Shown: in pieces, positions 5,455 through 18,106 of the stretch
Layout: every line of letters starts with the position of its first letter
Numbering within the stretch: position 1 is the stretch's first letter
DNA from: a virus
Reading direction: 5' to 3' (one strand)
IMG/VR virus record: IMGVR_UViG_3300008735_000058
Span: 1 to 32,306 of that record
DNA length: 32,306 bases
Program-made: the position numbers and the translations under genes
Notes under the pieces: model-generated
What the model saw: the letters and a program-made list of their open reading frames with translations, nothing else
What the model was told of the DNA's origin: nothing
The model's database searches: none

Positions 5455-6075
5455 ATGACTGATTGGGGTAAGATACTATTGGGCTTAGGTGGCGCAGGTG
5501 CTTTATATGGGTTATACAATAATTTCGGAGGGGGCCGACCCGTAAGCAGGGCGATGGGGTTACTGGACGTAGAAGACCCTGAGGCTGTAGAAGCGCCTTG
5601 GGATAGGTTTGTGGATGAAACGATAGACGAGGAGGGGAATGTTATAGACAGTAGAATAACTGAGGTTTCTCCCGAAGGCGAAGAAAGACTTGCCCCAAGA
5701 TTTGGCAGGCCTGAAAATTTCCCAGAAAACGTGCCACCAGACGCTATGAGAGAAATCCCTGACCCTGTTCAGTATTTCCGCCCCATTAGCGACTTCGCAC
5801 CAAATCCTCATACTTATTCTCCAGAAGAATACTGGGAGGGGAAGACAAGGCAATTAGCGGAGACAAGCGGGGTAGATTATCCAGCCAGTCTAGCAGAATA
5901 CAGGCGTATGCAATCCTTGGCAGGGGCTATTCCGTCAAGCCCACATAACCCAAATAGATATCGAATGGCAAGGCCTATGCCAACATTAGGGCAGTTACAA
6001 GACGTTGATCCAAGAAGTTACACTATGGGTACTGGTGGTTTACTTGATGAATTGGGCACAGAAAGGTATAGATAA
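5455..6075 (+). CDS. Small virion-region protein with N-terminal membrane segment
   Basis: This 206-residue protein has a clear start (AGAAGGAGAG then ATG). Residues 6-22 are hydrophobic and glycine-rich (ILLGLGGAGALYGLY) and could be a membrane anchor. The rest is acidic and proline-rich without any motif I recognise, and reads as a low-complexity virion protein. Its stop overlaps the start of the LysM gene by one base (TAATG), so the two are probably translated together. A role in the ejection apparatus is inference from position. Confidence 0.75.
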   Translation: MTDWGKILLGLGGAGALYGLYNNFGGGRPVSRAMGLLDVEDPEAVEAPWDRFVDETIDEEGNVIDSRITEVSPEGEERLAPRFGRPENFPENVPPDAMREIPDPVQYFRPISDFAPNPHTYSPEEYWEGKTRQLAETSGVDYPASLAEYRRMQSLAGAIPSSPHNPNRYRMARPMPTLGQLQDVDPRSYTMGTGGLLDELGTERYR

Positions 6076-7208
6076 TGTTTGGAGATGCTTTTACTGGGAT
6101 TAAAGGCTTTTTTGGTGGGCAGACACCACCTGTTCCAAGTCCGCAACAACAATACGAGGCTAGGCCAAGACCTCCGTTGACCCCACCACCTACGCAGTAT
6201 ACCATTCAGGGTGGCGACACATTATCACAGATAGCACAACGGCTGGGGGTATCTGCGGATGATCTTGCTAGAGCCAATACCATCCAAAACCCCCACATGA
6301 TTCGTGCAGGGCAGGTTTTAAACTATCCTTCAACGCAATCCCCGGATGCCAATGAATCCTTAGTACAAGCACAACAAAATAGCAAGATGGTATGGGATGA
6401 TTACATAAAGGCTGTGAAGCGTAAGAATAGCCGTGAGGAGCAGGTAAGGAAAAAGGACATGATCTCCGTTAAGCCGAAGGAAGCGTTCGGGGCCCCTCCA
6501 CTAGATGTGATGGAGCCAGACACCGAGGCTATGTTAAACGGGGCACCCGGTGCTTTTGATTGGTTGAACCCTATGGCCGGAAGCTATGACCCTACACAAA
6601 ACACAGACTTAGAGCCGAAAAAAGTCAAAGAGATAGCGACTGAACCGGATATGTCCCATTTGACGGGTATTCGTGACCAGAATGGCACCCTAACCGTAAA
6701 CCAGCTAGGGGCTCGGCTACACACTGACCACCCTAATTTAAGTAAGGCCCAAATGCAGGTCCCAGCTACACTAGGTAATAACAACCCTATCGGGATTTTA
6801 GTGGGTGATGGTTTTATCAACTGGGACGGGCTCACTCAGCGTGGGCAAGATCGGAAGGGGCATGAACACTCAATGTACCAGTTTATTACGCCAGAATATG
6901 GTGCGAGGGCGGCCGCTAGAAATATCAGAACGCAGGGGCGTACGGGCAAGGCGAGTACTTATGGCGGTTTTGTCAACCTACTTAAATCTCGTGATAAGAA
7001 ACGGGGTAGAGGGTATGATAAATTTGTAGCAGACAAATTAGGGGTAAAGGTTACTGATACATTTAACTACGAAGATGACCAATCGTTGGCTGATTTCTTA
7101 GAGGTATTTGCTAATTATGAATCTGGGTCATACGAAACAAAAAACAAACATGTCCAGAAATGGCCTCGTGGGGTTATAGAAACAGGAATTTTAATGGAAA
7201 GAAGATAA
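6075..7208 (+). CDS. LysM protein with phage lysozyme-like C-terminal domain
   Basis: This 377-residue protein has a hydrophobic, Gly/Phe-rich N-terminus (residues 1-15), a Pro-rich linker, and a well-formed LysM peptidoglycan-binding module at 42-85 (YTIQGGDTLSQIAQRLGVSA, then NP, then GQVLNYP). Residues about 190-372 match the layout of the phage domain with the NNNPGNIR signature: NNNPIGILVGDGFINWDG, then FITPEYGARAAARNIRT, then a late YESGS. That domain is usually labelled a virion lysozyme or structural protein. Here the canonical NPGNIR reads NPIGIL, so catalytic status is uncertain. It is probably a virion-borne wall-degrading or wall-binding protein. It is the last gene before the early promoter. 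Confidence 0.85.
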   Translation: MFGDAFTGIKGFFGGQTPPVPSPQQQYEARPRPPLTPPPTQYTIQGGDTLSQIAQRLGVSADDLARANTIQNPHMIRAGQVLNYPSTQSPDANESLVQAQQNSKMVWDDYIKAVKRKNSREEQVRKKDMISVKPKEAFGAPPLDVMEPDTEAMLNGAPGAFDWLNPMAGSYDPTQNTDLEPKKVKEIATEPDMSHLTGIRDQNGTLTVNQLGARLHTDHPNLSKAQMQVPATLGNNNPIGILVGDGFINWDGLTQRGQDRKGHEHSMYQFITPEYGARAAARNIRTQGRTGKASTYGGFVNLLKSRDKKRGRGYDKFVADKLGVKVTDTFNYEDDQSLADFLEVFANYESGSYETKNKHVQKWPRGVIETGILMERR

Positions 7209-7214
7209 AATTAC

Positions 7215-7242
7215 TTGACACGCAGAAAACTTGTGGTATATT
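7215..7242 (+). promoter_or_regulatory. Strong sigma70-type promoter with extended -10
   Basis: The -35 box TTGACA (7215-7220) is perfect. After a 16-base spacer comes TATATT (7237-7242), preceded by TGG, an extended -10 (TGn). Transcription should start near 7249, just upstream of a hairpin. It begins 6 bases after the LysM gene stop and faces the exonuclease gene, so it most likely drives the recombination/replication operon. The segment TTACTTGACACGC (7211-7223) recurs on the other strand at 30154-30166. Confidence 0.85.
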
Positions 7243-7248
7243 AGTCTC

Positions 7249-7401
7249 AACAGTCGGGAGGACTGAGGCTTACCACACGATGTTTTGCACAATAAAAGTC
7301 TCTTGCAGAGCGTAAGCTCATCCACGCAAGAGCGTCCTCCCAAGGGGGTTGGTACTGTTACCCAGTATCAGCCCCCGCTTACTTTTCAACGGGAGGACAA
7401 T
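7249..7401 (+). promoter_or_regulatory. Structured 5' leader with SD / anti-SD switch
   Basis: About 150 untranslated bases precede the exonuclease gene. Hairpin A is CAGTC/GACTG (7251-7265, loop GGGAG). Hairpin B pairs CTCTTGC 7300-7306 with 7326-7332 around an inner GAGC-GTAA-GCTC hairpin (GNRA loop, 7308-7319). Hairpin C is a 14-bp helix 7344-7357 with 7363-7376 (two G-U pairs, 5-base loop). GTCCTCCC (7334-7341), between B and C, is complementary both to the ribosome-binding site GGGAGGAC (7391-7398) and to a second GGGAGGAC (7256-7263) in hairpin A. The two pairings exclude each other, as in a translational riboswitch. It matches no riboswitch class I know. A short ORF (ATG 7280 to TAA 7315, 11 codons plus stop) could be a leader peptide. 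Confidence 0.7.
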
Positions 7402-8250
7402 ATGCCAATCACAGAAGAACAAAGACAATTGAGAGAAGGGAAGATAGGTAGCAGTGATATTGCTGGTGCCAGAGGTCATTCCCCATACACCACCCCTGCG
7501 AAGGTTTACGCCAAGGTTAAGGGTTTGTGCGATGGTCCTGTAGAAACCACCGCTATGCGTGTGGGGACTGCTATGGAGCCTATTATCTTAAATGAATTTA
7601 ACCTTAAACATGGGGTGGATTTTAATGAGTATAACGACACTTTGCATCATCCTTATTATGAGTTTCTTATCTGTCATTGTGATGGGATTAATGGAGATCA
7701 GACAGAGCTTCTTGAAATCAAGAATGTAGGACACAGAGTCAGCCATCACTGGGGACCTGACGGTGATCCCGTTGGAGTACCTTTATATGTGCTAGACCAG
7801 TGTGTGTTTCAGTCGTTTATGACCGGTATTATGACAGTATGGGTGTGTGCTTATTTTGGTGGAAATGACATACGATCTTACAAAATTGTGTTCTCTAAAA
7901 AAGATCACAATGCGTTAGAGGACGACCTACTGAAATTCTGGGGTTACGTTGAGAGGAGCGAGGTACCACCATTAGGTGCCACGGATGCAAAATCCGCCTC
8001 TTTGTACTGGCCACAACATAGTACCGGAGTAACGGCTTCTATAATTGACAATGCCAGAGTACTAGGGTATACTAAGAATCGTCAGAAGAAGCAAGATGCC
8101 GAGGAGGAGATGTTGAAGTATGAAGCCTCACTTAAGCAGAGTATGAAGGATTCTGAGGAGCTTCTTGACGATAAAGGGAATGTAATATTCACTTGGCGGA
8201 CCGATAGAAGGGGCAACCGGTCATTTCGCTGTAAAATTCGGGGAGGCTGA
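7402..8250 (+). CDS. YqaJ-type phage exonuclease / recombinase
   Basis: This 282-residue protein is read from ATG 7402 because GGGAGGAC lies 3 bases upstream; an upstream TTG frame (7285) is leader sequence. It is a PD-(D/E)XK nuclease of the YqaJ / lambda exonuclease group: GSSDIAGA near residue 16, a Glu in RVGTAMEP (E59), Asp in CDGI (D94), ELLEIKN (E105 and K107) and a downstream Gln in LDQCVFQ. Such enzymes chew one strand of linear duplex to give 3' single strands for a partner annealing protein, and an ERF protein is encoded two genes on. Residues 215-250 are charged and helical. It opens the early operon under the promoter and leader described here. Confidence 0.92.
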   Translation: MPITEEQRQLREGKIGSSDIAGARGHSPYTTPAKVYAKVKGLCDGPVETTAMRVGTAMEPIILNEFNLKHGVDFNEYNDTLHHPYYEFLICHCDGINGDQTELLEIKNVGHRVSHHWGPDGDPVGVPLYVLDQCVFQSFMTGIMTVWVCAYFGGNDIRSYKIVFSKKDHNALEDDLLKFWGYVERSEVPPLGATDAKSASLYWPQHSTGVTASIIDNARVLGYTKNRQKKQDAEEEMLKYEASLKQSMKDSEELLDDKGNVIFTWRTDRRGNRSFRCKIRGG

Positions 8251-8587: not shown

Positions 8588-9152
8588 CTTCCATAAATAT
8601 ACTTATGTCACCGAGGGTAGTCTACAGGATCACTTAGTTCCTGCGTTAAGCAAGGTAGGCTTGTCTTTGGTCGGAAGTGTAAGTGAGATGAAAGTTGATG
8701 AAAAAAAGGGAGGAGTGTACGTTGAATTTACTTACAACCTTACTCATCAGAGTGGGGCAATTTGGCCGTGGCCTATTAAGTACTGGGGCTATGGACAGGA
8801 CAAGGGTGATAAGGCTATTTATAAAGCCTATACTGGGGCTAACAAGTATGCCCTGTTCAAACTGTTTCAGATTGCTACTGGGGATGACCCCGAGGCTGAT
8901 GTTGCCACAGACATTAATGCCGAAAGTTCCCCAGTGGGGAAAGTGGTTGAGGCAATAGGTGGGGAGAGCCAGAAAGCTGTGACAGCTTATCTTATGAATC
9001 GCTTTCCTAATAACCCTAAGAACCGAACTGCGTTGCTGAAAAGCTACGTTAGTAAGACGAAGAGCCAGATGGAAGCAGGCAAGGTAGCCGATGTTTCCGA
9101 CTTGACAGAGCAAGATTGCTCTGCTATATTAACCATCATTGAGAAGGAGTAA
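8451..9152 (+). CDS. erf: ERF-superfamily single-strand annealing protein
   Basis: This 233-residue protein starts at ATG 8451 with GAGGAG 8 bases upstream. Residues 18-150 carry the ERF pattern: an early helix (ALVEVMRDVRYVQKTGRNDF), HKYTYVTEGSLQDHLVPAL, SLVGSVSEM, then a beta-strand with WPWPIKYWGYGQDKGDKAIY and KAYTGANKYALFKLFQIATG. Such proteins anneal complementary single strands during phage recombination and genome circularisation. The partner exonuclease is two genes upstream and SSB is next, the classic annealing module. The C-terminal about 80 residues are charged helices. Its first 137 bases are shared with the preceding ORF. Confidence 0.92.
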   Translation: MTQTTEHQEAVQTIPVPVEKHVAVITQALVEVMRDVRYVQKTGRNDFHKYTYVTEGSLQDHLVPALSKVGLSLVGSVSEMKVDEKKGGVYVEFTYNLTHQSGAIWPWPIKYWGYGQDKGDKAIYKAYTGANKYALFKLFQIATGDDPEADVATDINAESSPVGKVVEAIGGESQKAVTAYLMNRFPNNPKNRTALLKSYVSKTKSQMEAGKVADVSDLTEQDCSAILTIIEKE

Positions 9153-14053: not shown

Positions 14054-14278
14054 ACAGCCCCAGTTCACGGCAAAGCTACCTGTCGGGTGTCGGGGGCAAA
14101 ATCGGCACCATTTGAGGGCGTTGACGGAGGACAACGTAAGGTAGCAATCCTCCCCAAATTAGCAACTAGCCTCACCCCCTATATTATAAATATAACCTGT
14201 ATAGAGAGCTATCTGGGTGGTGTTTATACCTATATCTTGTGTCGAGATCAGGGGGTGGGGCTTTTATATTGGGGAAAA
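14054..14278. other. Non-coding region with possible promoter and structured leader
   Basis: About 225 bases lack a convincing gene. A weak promoter may lie at TTAGCA (14159-14164), 17-base spacer, TATTAT (14182-14187). Near its start a hairpin can form at 14195-14218 (9 bp with one mismatch). Upstream, GGAGGA (14126-14131) can pair with TCCTCC (14148-14153), and GCCCC (14057-14061) with GGGGC (14093-14097). Nothing here is conclusive. A longer ORF through this stretch (from 14087) starts in non-coding-like sequence and is not used. Confidence 0.4.
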
Positions 14279-14524
14279 ATGGAAATCAACGTTCTTAGCT
14301 TAGCTGAAACCTATGGGTGGACTCTCTTTATGACGCTGTGGGCGGCTTGGACTGTAAAACAGATAAACAGGGGGCTATGGTATGGGGTATATTCTGGCTT
14401 AGTCTGTAATTCATGTTTCCTTTATCACTGGTGGTTAACTGGGCAGTATGGTTTTCTTGTGGGGGACCTGATATTTACCGTTACATATTTGACTGAAATT
14501 AGGCATAACCGGGGGACGAGATGA
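14279..14524 (+). CDS. Small multi-pass membrane protein
   Basis: Read from ATG 14279 (GGGG upstream), 81 residues. Two or three hydrophobic segments are visible (WTLFMTLWAAW, YGVYSGLVCNSCFLYHWWLT, FLVGDLIFTVTYL). Tryptophan and tyrosine are abundant at the segment ends. The topology is holin-like, but the position among early genes rather than beside lysis genes makes holin only one possibility. Its stop overlaps the next start by 4 bases. Confidence 0.6.
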   Translation: MEINVLSLAETYGWTLFMTLWAAWTVKQINRGLWYGVYSGLVCNSCFLYHWWLTGQYGFLVGDLIFTVTYLTEIRHNRGTR

Positions 14525-14791: not shown

Positions 14792-14912
14792 ATGAGAAAA
14801 AGATGTCCAAAAAATAGTTTAACCTGTTAAATCCTCCCAGAAAAAAAATATATTAACTCTGAGCGTAAGCGAAGAGAATGAAATTTAAATCTTTTGATTT
14901 TTAAGGAAGAGT

Positions 14913-15714: not shown

Positions 15715-15766
15715 TTACGATCCTAAATCCCATTTTTGGGATTTTCGAGAAAACAGAGGAAAAAAT

Positions 15767-15797
15767 TCCCCGGCTCTTTTTGGATGGGAGCCGGGGA
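15767..15797. terminator. Strong bidirectional terminator
   Basis: TCCCCGGCTC (15767-15776) pairs with GAGCCGGGGA (15788-15797), a perfect 10-bp stem with an 11-base loop. On the plus strand it is followed by GATTTTATTATTTG; on the minus strand by AATTTTTTCC. It therefore suits both the rightward genes ending at 15541 and the leftward cassette ending at 15992. Confidence 0.85.
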
Positions 15798-15991
15798 GAT
15801 TTTATTATTTGATTCGGACGAGGAACCCGGCGATCCTGCCGGGAACCCCACCCAAAATGATTAAGATTCTTTAAAGCAAAAAGTTAAAATTGAGCCAGTG
15901 AGGAACCAACCCCAACCCCCGATTTCTGCAAAACATAAAAGCCCTGCAAGAATCAGGAGAAGGATTGAAACCAGATTATGCCATTGACTCA

Positions 15992-16846
15992 TTAATACCC
16001 TTCAAGATTAAAAAGTTTCTGCCTGTCTAGCTCAATCTGCTCCGCTCTGTTTTCTTCCATTTCCTTCTCTTTTGCGTTCCAGTATTTGCACTCATCGGCA
16101 AATATTTCTTCCCTTTTTTTCCAGTAAGCATCATTCCATTGATCATCTCCGTATCTGTGAACTGGTGTATACCCTCTGCCAACGGGTTCCTCCCAAGCAT
16201 CGTAGCCATAATTAATATTCTCATCACCATCGAAAACATAACCAGATTGACTAGTGGTTCCACCTTTCACCATCAATCCCATTTTCCAGAAATTATTGGA
16301 AGAAACGAAACCATCGTGTTTATCCCAATATGCTCCCGTTAAATCAAGTTTTCCAGAGTGATGTAAAATTGCTAGATACTCATCAGAATCTGATAAAGTC
16401 GCACCTTTTGAGAGATACCCTTCCCAAGCCAGTAAACGGGAGTCAGACCAAGCACCTTTCGGAGGCCTGTTAGTTTCGCAAATGTCTATAAAATCTTTTT
16501 CCCATTGTGAGACATGCCCATTATGAAATAAAACTGAACCCTTCAAACTTCCCGCTAATCTTAAATCAGCGGTTTTATTAATAGGAAAAGGATGAGTCAA
16601 TTTATCACTTATACCACCGCAAGATGAAATCCTGAAATGGAAAACCACTGGGGTTTTAGACGCATCAATATCATACTTCTTGATTAATTCAAGCATTTTA
16701 TCGGCATCAATCCCCTTCCGAAAAAATAGCCTATTATTCCAGACCCAAGCCATTCCGCCTCCGTCTGGATTTGTCTCTTCCCCTTTTTTCAAATCTTTAT
16801 ATGATGGGAGTTTTCCGCCCTTATCCGTTGCAAAAATTACGCACAT
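15992..16846 (-). CDS. Class II glutamine amidotransferase-like Ntn hydrolase
   Basis: This 284-residue leftward protein starts MCVIFATDKGG, placing Cys2 to become the N-terminal nucleophile after Met removal, the hallmark of class II glutamine amidotransferases. Further family features: NPDGGGMAWV (residues 26-35), VFHFRISSCGG (the Arg site), a later HNGHVSQWE (the NG site) and WSDSRLLAW. It has about 190 residues of domain, then an Asn/Asp/Glu-rich tail. No synthetase domain is fused, so it presumably works with the adjacent amidoligase, supplying ammonia from glutamine or trimming amides. It overlaps the amidoligase gene by 26 bases. Its start follows A7-GG-A7-C, the same leader as the cassette's first gene. 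Confidence 0.88.
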   Translation of the reverse strand: MCVIFATDKGGKLPSYKDLKKGEETNPDGGGMAWVWNNRLFFRKGIDADKMLELIKKYDIDASKTPVVFHFRISSCGGISDKLTHPFPINKTADLRLAGSLKGSVLFHNGHVSQWEKDFIDICETNRPPKGAWSDSRLLAWEGYLSKGATLSDSDEYLAILHHSGKLDLTGAYWDKHDGFVSSNNFWKMGLMVKGGTTSQSGYVFDGDENINYGYDAWEEPVGRGYTPVHRYGDDQWNDAYWKKREEIFADECKYWNAKEKEMEENRAEQIELDRQKLFNLEGY

Positions 16847-17597
16847 GTTTTTTTCCTTTTTTTGATGTTATAGAATATTCCTCAATCAAATGATTGTTGA
16901 ATTTTTTCGGTAACGCAAAATATATTGGGTTCCCTTCTGAAGACCAATTGTTTTTCTTATCTGATAAATAATTTTCATAAATTTGTAAAATTGCTATGAC
17001 AGCTTTTAAAGCTATTTTTTTATCCCCAAACATCGGAAGGACTCTGCATTCAATAGTCTCGTGGTCTATCCAACAATAATTTAAAATTGAATATCTCGAC
17101 TGACCTTGATTGTCACCTAGTTGTCTGCCCGGAGCGTGAACATCTAAACAATAATCATTATGACCTGCAAGCCTGTCAAAGAAAGACCGCTTGTTGGGAC
17201 AATGAACTAAACCCCATTCAATCAATTCTTTTTTAAAATGTTTATAAAACGATTTTTCACATAAACGGGAATAATCGTCAACTCCATTTAGACTGATATG
17301 AACGTGAAGCCCACAGGTTAAATTTACCTCGTCTGGGTGGTAATCGTCAAAAAAATGTTTCATCTCCTCAGATGAGTACAAAATATCACTTGCGACCTCG
17401 CCAACATATCCGCTGTGGTAAGACTCGCTTTGATCACAGTCGCAATATTCGTAATCATCACAGTCTGGATGATGCTCATGGTCTTGATAGAACTCAACAG
17501 ATCCATCCTCTTTAAAAAGGTCATTGTGTCGATACCATAGCCCCTCAAATTCTAAACCAACTGCTTTAACATTGGTGAAAATTTCTGTTTTATTCAT
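16821..17597 (-). CDS. Amidoligase of the glutamine-synthetase-like COOH-NH2 ligase family
   Basis: This 258-residue leftward protein carries the GS-fold amidoligase signature: GLEFEG (residues 14-19; metal-binding acids E16 and E18), EDGSVEF (30-36), GEVASDIL (66-73), CGLHVHISL (95-103), RYSILN (168-173) and TIECRVLPMF (181-190). The family (PF12224 type) couples ATP to amide-bond formation between a carboxylate and an amine. Family precedent in phages and bacteria includes neighbouring class II amidotransferases and peptide or cell-wall substrates, but the substrate here is unknown. An Asp/His/Cys-rich loop (about 39-62) is unusual. It overlaps the upstream gene by 4 bases and the amidotransferase gene by 26, so the three are one operon. 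Confidence 0.88.
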   Translation of the reverse strand: MNKTEIFTNVKAVGLEFEGLWYRHNDLFKEDGSVEFYQDHEHHPDCDDYEYCDCDQSESYHSGYVGEVASDILYSSEEMKHFFDDYHPDEVNLTCGLHVHISLNGVDDYSRLCEKSFYKHFKKELIEWGLVHCPNKRSFFDRLAGHNDYCLDVHAPGRQLGDNQGQSRYSILNYCWIDHETIECRVLPMFGDKKIALKAVIAILQIYENYLSDKKNNWSSEGNPIYFALPKKFNNHLIEEYSITSKKGKKHVRNFCNG

Positions 17598-18106
17598 TTG
17601 CCAATTTCCTTATTTTGTTGAAATTTTAAAGTAAAATTATAGGTCGTTTCAATAATATGATTAATGTAAACGTGCCGCAAAAAATTGTTCAACTGCTCTT
17701 TAAATTTTCTCAAGACCGATTTGCAAATAGGAACCTCCAAAATAAATTTATTCCCCTTTTCTGCGAACATGAAAGAGAATACAGCTAAATTATCAAGTAG
17801 TAATGTGCCTCCACCGTATCCAAAATAACCCAGCGGGTAAAAATCTTCCGGGACTACTTTCTCTGTCAAGTTGACCTTATCGCCAGAGTCCGCATGAAAC
17901 AAATTAGGGAGAGCATAAGAGCTTCCATCAACTGGGTCGAGGCTACGCATAAAATCCCAAAACTCAGGAGCTTCAATTGTAACTAAAACACCTTCCATTT
18001 TTTTCGATTTATATTTAATTGCATTTGCCCTGACTTGATATGAATCAGCATGAGGGCTTTTCCTTTTACCACCTTTGCCAGACCGTTTCATTCGATTTCT
18101 AGCCAT
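17594..18106 (-). CDS. Basic unknown protein opening the amidoligase operon
   Basis: This 170-residue leftward protein is first in the cassette. Residues 1-38 are very basic (RNRMKRSGKGGKRKSPHADS), the rest a mixed alpha/beta domain with repeated Phe and Tyr (FWDFMRSLDPVDG, then FYPLGYFGYGGGTLLL, then a helix FKEQLNNFLRHVYINHII). No family is recognised. Because it overlaps the amidoligase gene (ATGA), it may be the substrate, a carrier or a partner of that enzyme; this is a guess from linkage. The promoter is at 18186-18157. Confidence 0.75.
   Translation of the reverse strand: MARNRMKRSGKGGKRKSPHADSYQVRANAIKYKSKKMEGVLVTIEAPEFWDFMRSLDPVDGSSYALPNLFHADSGDKVNLTEKVVPEDFYPLGYFGYGGGTLLLDNLAVFSFMFAEKGNKFILEVPICKSVLRKFKEQLNNFLRHVYINHIIETTYNFTLKFQQNKEIGK

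Follow-up and report, generated by a model that had tools for sequence, protein, structure and literature searches.

The window analysed here, the whole stretch of a 32,306-base IMG/VR virus record, belongs to a tailed phage with SU10-type portal and capsid proteins. On its plus strand, structure and lysis genes lead up to a LysM/endolysin-like gene, which is separated by a 193-base gap from a recombination block; the leader element under study is located in this gap, between the endolysin-like gene and the exonuclease gene. The exonuclease is recognized by the profiles Pfam YqaJ (E 1.9e-18) and phrog_434, RecE-like (E 4.2e-43), and the block downstream of it encodes an Erf annealing protein, an SSB, a DnaB-like helicase and nucleases. 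The genes flanking the leader and the elements within it are as follows.

6075..7208, plus strand: LysM/endolysin-like gene, directly upstream of the leader and the supposed source of read-through
7251..7265, plus strand: short 5' hairpin CAGUC-GGGAG-GACUG of the own-promoter transcript, predicted to be the first to form
7256..7263, plus strand: first GGGAGGAC (exact match), the anti-anti-SD or RBS decoy
7264..7320, plus strand: predicted open-state extension, UGAG 7264-7267 with CUCA 7317-7320 and CUUAC 7269-7273 with GUAAG 7312-7316
7280..7315, plus strand: possible 11-codon leader ORF, MFCTIKVSCRA, read from the sequence, its UAA stop in the GUAA loop
7300..7332, plus strand: compound hairpin with a GUAA tetraloop, CTCTTGC 7300-7306 and GCAAGAG 7326-7332 around GAGC-GTAA-GCTC 7308-7319
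7334..7341, plus strand: anti-SD GTCCTCCC, exact complement of both GGGAGGAC copies
7344..7376, plus strand: 14-bp helix, 7344-7357 with 7363-7376, including two G-U pairs, which brings anti-SD and RBS together
7391..7398, plus strand: exonuclease RBS GGGAGGAC, read from the sequence
7402..8250, plus strand: YqaJ/RecE-like exonuclease of 282 aa, the first gene 3' of the leader, beginning with ATG 7402

A longer exonuclease starting at TTG 7285 within the leader was considered and rejected: its frame is open, but relatives begin with MPITEEQR and the TTG has no well-placed SD.

The original prediction had placed two copies of GGGAGGAC in competition for one GTCCTCCC, with a compound GNRA hairpin and a 14-bp helix between them, and all of these parts are present in the sequence at the positions it gave. 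The repeat containing GGGAGGAC extends to 9 nt (CGGGAGGAC). The leader was put through 200,000 dinucleotide shuffles; 2,883 of them produced an 8-nt complement to the RBS region, and 4 produced both such a complement and an upstream copy. At the window's other SD-type RBSs, upstream complements never exceed 7 nt. The duplicated GGGAGGAC with its single complement is real, and chance is an unlikely source of it. Folding of the RNA 7249-7410, proposed at the outset as a check, gave -63.7 kcal/mol (z -4.96), well beyond what shuffles reach (0 of 200 as good).

Two readings of these elements touch on how the leader RNA itself might be used. Ribosomes sitting on the first GGGAGGAC/GAGG or on the ORF 7280-7315 could block the decoy and close the RBS, or otherwise couple the two; the first GGGAGGAC is itself an SD sequence, and the MFCTIKVSCRA frame ends with UAA inside the GUAA loop. 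However, the spacing from SD to ATG is poor (18 nt from GGAGG, 11 nt from GAGG), the peptide has no run of a single residue, and an ORF this short is common by chance, so that we consider control by ribosome occupancy quite improbable. We rate lower still the reading of the leader as a processing site, with hairpins either cut by RNase III or acting as a barrier or 5' stabiliser that separates the lysis and recombination messages. Extended double-stranded stems at the junction of two functional gene blocks, and a stable hairpin close to the 5' end, would suit such a role; yet the stems are interrupted and each is shorter than 20 bp, and the exact 8-nt duplicate of the RBS with its single complement would be left unexplained.

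Three further features begin upstream of the first GGGAGGAC, one of them a promoter-like site.

7215..7242, plus strand: putative sigma-70-like promoter, TTGACA-16 nt-TGg-TATATT, with an extended -10; 11 of 12 matches, the best in the region
7222..7288, plus strand: outer helix of the gate, GCAGAA 7222-7227 with UUUUGC 7283-7288, found in the MFE structure of 7209-7402
7232..7277, plus strand: gate hairpin, predicted in read-through RNA only; UGUGGUA 7232-7238 with UACCACA 7271-7277, AGUCUCA 7243-7249 with UGAGGCU 7264-7270, and GUC/GAC

From standard promoter spacing we infer a transcription start at about A7249, which would put the 5' boundary originally drawn at the beginning of the own-promoter transcript. 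All parts named for the element 7249-7401 are present within these bounds; its 5' limit does not hold, because two sets of pairings missing from the original description, 7264-7273 with 7312-7320 and 7232-7255 with 7261-7277, place the start of the element upstream of 7249, within the promoter-like site. The latter overlaps the 5' strand of the gate hairpin, which on its own folds with -18.4 kcal/mol (z -3.94) and whose loop holds GGGAG 7256-7260, part of the first GGGAGGAC. The strand that a start at the leader's own promoter would remove thus pairs with 7261-7277 around the decoy, and not with the RBS or the start region, while the RBS partner 7334-7341 is present in both transcript types. 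In MFE, nascent and constrained folds, the open-state extension 7264..7320 is mutually exclusive with both the compound hairpin and the gate. Between the endolysin gene and the leader we found no terminator-like site, and transcription of the upstream genes should therefore continue into the leader. The gate hairpin begins 23 nt past the endolysin stop codon, and its start probably lies beyond the reach of a ribosome terminating there.

Read-through RNA was represented by 7209-7402, whose MFE of -78.4 kcal/mol (z -7.42) ranks first among 4,016 windows of both strands; the minus strand at the leader is less structured (z -4.0). In this RNA, the 7232-7277 helix is predicted with a probability of 0.99 (Turner 2004), and the RBS is closed with a probability of 0.99-1.0 under four energy sets at 15, 25 and 37 C. 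Before the RBS is made, pairing of the decoy with the anti-SD in nascent read-through RNA stays at 0.001-0.008 under Turner 2004 (at most 0.002 for starts at 7225-7233, 0.003-0.008 for longer RNAs), and it rises to 0.99-1.0 in nascent RNA that starts at or beyond 7236. The switch point accordingly falls at start positions 7233-7236, at least 13 bases upstream of the predicted start at 7249. The Langdon 2018 and Andronescu sets give a weaker gate in nascent RNA (decoy pairing 0.26-0.69), but the RNA still ends up closed. With the RBS included, the compound hairpin reaches a probability of at least 0.94 for starts at or upstream of 7209 and folds fully in read-through RNA only; in own-promoter RNA its probability is about 0.4-0.6. 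The RBS of the read-through RNA was closed by 30 s in all 48 simulated runs.

The 14-bp helix stays formed in both states (P 0.999), and this bears on a further candidate, a transcription attenuator, which we rejected: a helix common to both states is also a poor intrinsic terminator, with a terminator d score of -28.7 vs -0.3 for the hairpin at 15766.

How far these properties depend on the particular upstream strand can be judged from replacement sequences. With the real upstream 40 nt (7209-7248), closed is favored over open by 13.4 kcal/mol, a bias matched by 1 of 500 random 40-mers from the same genome under Turner 2004, 2 of 500 under Turner 1999 and 0 of 500 under Andronescu; the effect on nascent RNA was matched by none of 800 shuffles of the real upstream 40 nt and by 6 of 800 random 40-mers. 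Overall, 0.4-1.5% of random upstream pieces perform comparably. The specificity of the upstream strand is good, not overwhelming, given that the fold had been seen before the idea arose. These figures also count against the view that the upstream pairing arose by coincidence or reflects a DNA operator overlapping the promoter, and that the leader is a kinetically timed RBS hairpin which permits a brief phase of translation and then closes, with no sensing of the start site. Inverted repeats of 7 bp do arise by chance in 250 nt, and another one is present; a repressor could act at TGTGGTA, which overlaps the extended -10; and own-promoter RNA drifts towards the closed state in the Turner 2004 model. 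An energy bias that no more than 2 of 500 random pieces reach fits coincidence poorly, however, and the hairpin, with its one-sided bulges and a G-U pair, is unlike a symmetrical operator, with 39 bp between half-site centres, which is long for a single dimer. We regard this alternative as unlikely.

In RNA that starts at about 7249, the gate cannot form. The nascent segment 7249-7388 pairs the decoy GGGAGGAC at 7256-7263 with 7334-7341 at a probability of at least 0.999 under four energy sets at 15, 25 and 37 C, and the pairing is extended by UGAG/CUCA and CUUAC/GUAAG. With the RBS complete, Turner 2004 favors the closed state by about 1.3-1.4 kcal/mol in the ensemble, or 90% closed at equilibrium, and the other energy sets favor the open state or an even split. 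The mutually exclusive pairings at the heart of the original prediction are thus borne out, and from a start at 7249 the two states lie near each other in energy. Given 90% closure at equilibrium under Turner 2004, opening of this RNA would depend on kinetics. Direct conversion of the open into the closed form costs about 14.5 kcal/mol, an upper estimate, and in cotranscriptional simulation the RBS was free on emergence in 47 of 48 runs and still free in 26 of 48 after 30 s with ribosomes left out. Under slow kinetics, folding went by way of another trap that leaves the RBS free, and 12 of 16 runs had reached the closed state at 30 s. The simulation is coarse, relying on sampled structures, direct paths and assumed prefactors of 1e5-1e7 per second.

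A small energy difference between two conformers would also suit a switch responsive to a ligand or protein, where one form of the own-promoter RNA is bound by a metabolite or by a protein of phage or host (for instance SSB, Erf or another product of the operon) and the open/closed balance is set by this binding. The difference of about 1.3 kcal/mol resembles that of riboswitch expression platforms, the GUAA-loop compound hairpin could serve as a binding site, and T4 genes 32 and 43 are autoregulated in a manner of this general kind (PMC3014915). Conversely, Rfam searches with the leader at gathering and relaxed thresholds gave no match apart from an lncRNA hit at chance level on the minus strand, and the original prediction had likewise been unable to match it to a known riboswitch class; no homologous leader, no relatives with aptamer-like conservation and no candidate binding site came to light; and the compound hairpin folds best in read-through RNA that is already closed. 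Such a switch appears rather unlikely to us. The leader had originally been read as a translational riboswitch or thermosensor. Control of translation is still the natural reading, a ligand riboswitch lacks positive evidence, and a thermosensor is not supported, the predicted closure of the RBS being nearly flat between 10 and 60 C: in own-promoter RNA, P(closed) is 0.76, 0.87, 0.90, 0.90, 0.90, 0.87 and 0.78 at 10, 20, 30, 37, 42, 50 and 60 C, respectively.

That the promoter strand pairs with the leader, a point missed earlier, suggests a different input, namely where the transcript starts. We propose a cis-acting RNA gate through which the exonuclease would be translated only from own-promoter transcripts, and put the probability of this reading at roughly 45%; like every functional claim made here, it draws on the predicted folding of one sequence. 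An RNA initiated at about 7249 would lack the promoter strand, and nothing would shield its first GGGAGGAC. Once the anti-SD 7334-7341 has been transcribed, GGGAGGAC together with the adjoining UGAGgCUUAC would capture it; the RBS, completed about 57 nt later, would thus emerge open and could be loaded. A late-gene transcript, by comparison, would carry the promoter sequence as RNA, and this strand would pair with 7261-7277 and lock the first GGGAGGAC in a loop. With the decoy locked, the anti-SD would be free, the compound hairpin and the 14-bp helix would fold, and the anti-SD would close the RBS. Early recombination functions would in that case stay off late in infection despite read-through. 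That this three-step relay serves to sense transcript origin, and so limits the first gene of the early recombination operon to transcripts from its own host-type promoter, is a fuller claim that we hold a little more tentatively.

The original prediction went further and had the leader control entry into the whole recombination operon. This is too strong: only the RBS of the first gene would be directly gated, the later genes mostly have their own SDs, and two promoter-like sites with 11 of 12 matches each lie within the block on the plus strand, at 8045-8073 in the exonuclease gene and at 9102-9130 in the Erf gene. The second of these is about 20 bases ahead of the SSB start region; access to the SSB RBS also appears higher in a short transcript, as far as predicted folding indicates.

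Several known systems provide points of comparison. For T4 e, soc, 49 and I-TevI/mobE, the RBS is closed in long transcripts derived from upstream, and for e, soc, 49 and I-TevI a late promoter sits in the 5' strand of the inhibitory hairpin, so that own transcripts escape and are translated (PMC3014915, PMC2988022). The present leader resembles T4 e and I-TevI in its predicted RBS closure of 0.99-1.0 in read-through RNA and in a promoter-like site, 7215-7242, within the 5' strand of an inhibitory structure that own transcripts cannot form. Unlike in T4, where the removed strand pairs with the RBS region, here it would hide a decoy RBS, and a relay of three pairings would be involved in which the decoy takes the anti-SD away; moreover, a late promoter and late genes in T4 contrast with a sigma-70-like promoter and a recombination gene downstream of lysis genes in this phage. 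The hok, aapA3 and MS2 maturation leaders are metastable SD-sequestering RNAs in which the order of cotranscriptional folding can decide translation (PMC6733600). Our leader would share with them sequential, exclusive anti-SD pairings and RBS access set by folding order; their input is the timing of one transcript type or its processed forms, whereas here it would be the start site. With translational riboswitches and erm-type leaders it has in common three segments (SD, anti-SD and anti-anti-SD) contesting a single anti-SD, but no aptamer, ligand or stall peptide is recognized and no Rfam family matches. If the proposal is correct, sensing of the start site through mRNA structure extends beyond late genes of the T4-like kind, and would operate in a small phage outside the T4 group in the opposite direction, keeping an early recombination nuclease off late transcripts. 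The relay would then explain how early and late proteins are kept separate in compact phages that have no terminators between gene blocks.

Searches of viral contigs, one-per-species genomes, phages and plasmids did not recover the leader in any relative: phages and plasmids searched at the DNA level gave nothing, patterns for the exact leader architecture had no match, and scans with the exonuclease, endolysin, Erf and DnaB proteins found no close relative. The two nearest contigs (portal 98-100%) end short of the leader, and a search of 40 records with the exonuclease yielded one match, at 28%. Among twelve distant exonuclease loci, in which L002 and L091 represent one contig, none has an upstream RBS complement longer than 7 nt or a leader of this kind.

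Elsewhere in the window, a three-gene operon on the minus strand (15992-18106) has its own strong promoter-like site at 18186-18157 (11 of 12 matches). Its last protein gives a weak, below-cut-off match to a class-II glutamine amidotransferase (GATase_4, E 0.011), and its other proteins have no match in Pfam, PHROGs or NCBIfam. The segment 15660-15990, between convergent operons, is highly structured and contains a GC-rich hairpin with a T-rich tail at 15766-15798; it matches no Rfam family above gathering and is probably a terminator region. In an AT-rich intergenic stretch at 14820-14880 on the plus strand, TCCTCCCAG and GAGCGTAAGCG resemble the leader's anti-SD and GUAA hairpin, a likeness that could be due to chance. 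Unusually stable RNA structure is also predicted at 14080-14310 on the plus strand, around the start of the unassigned ORF 14087-14524.
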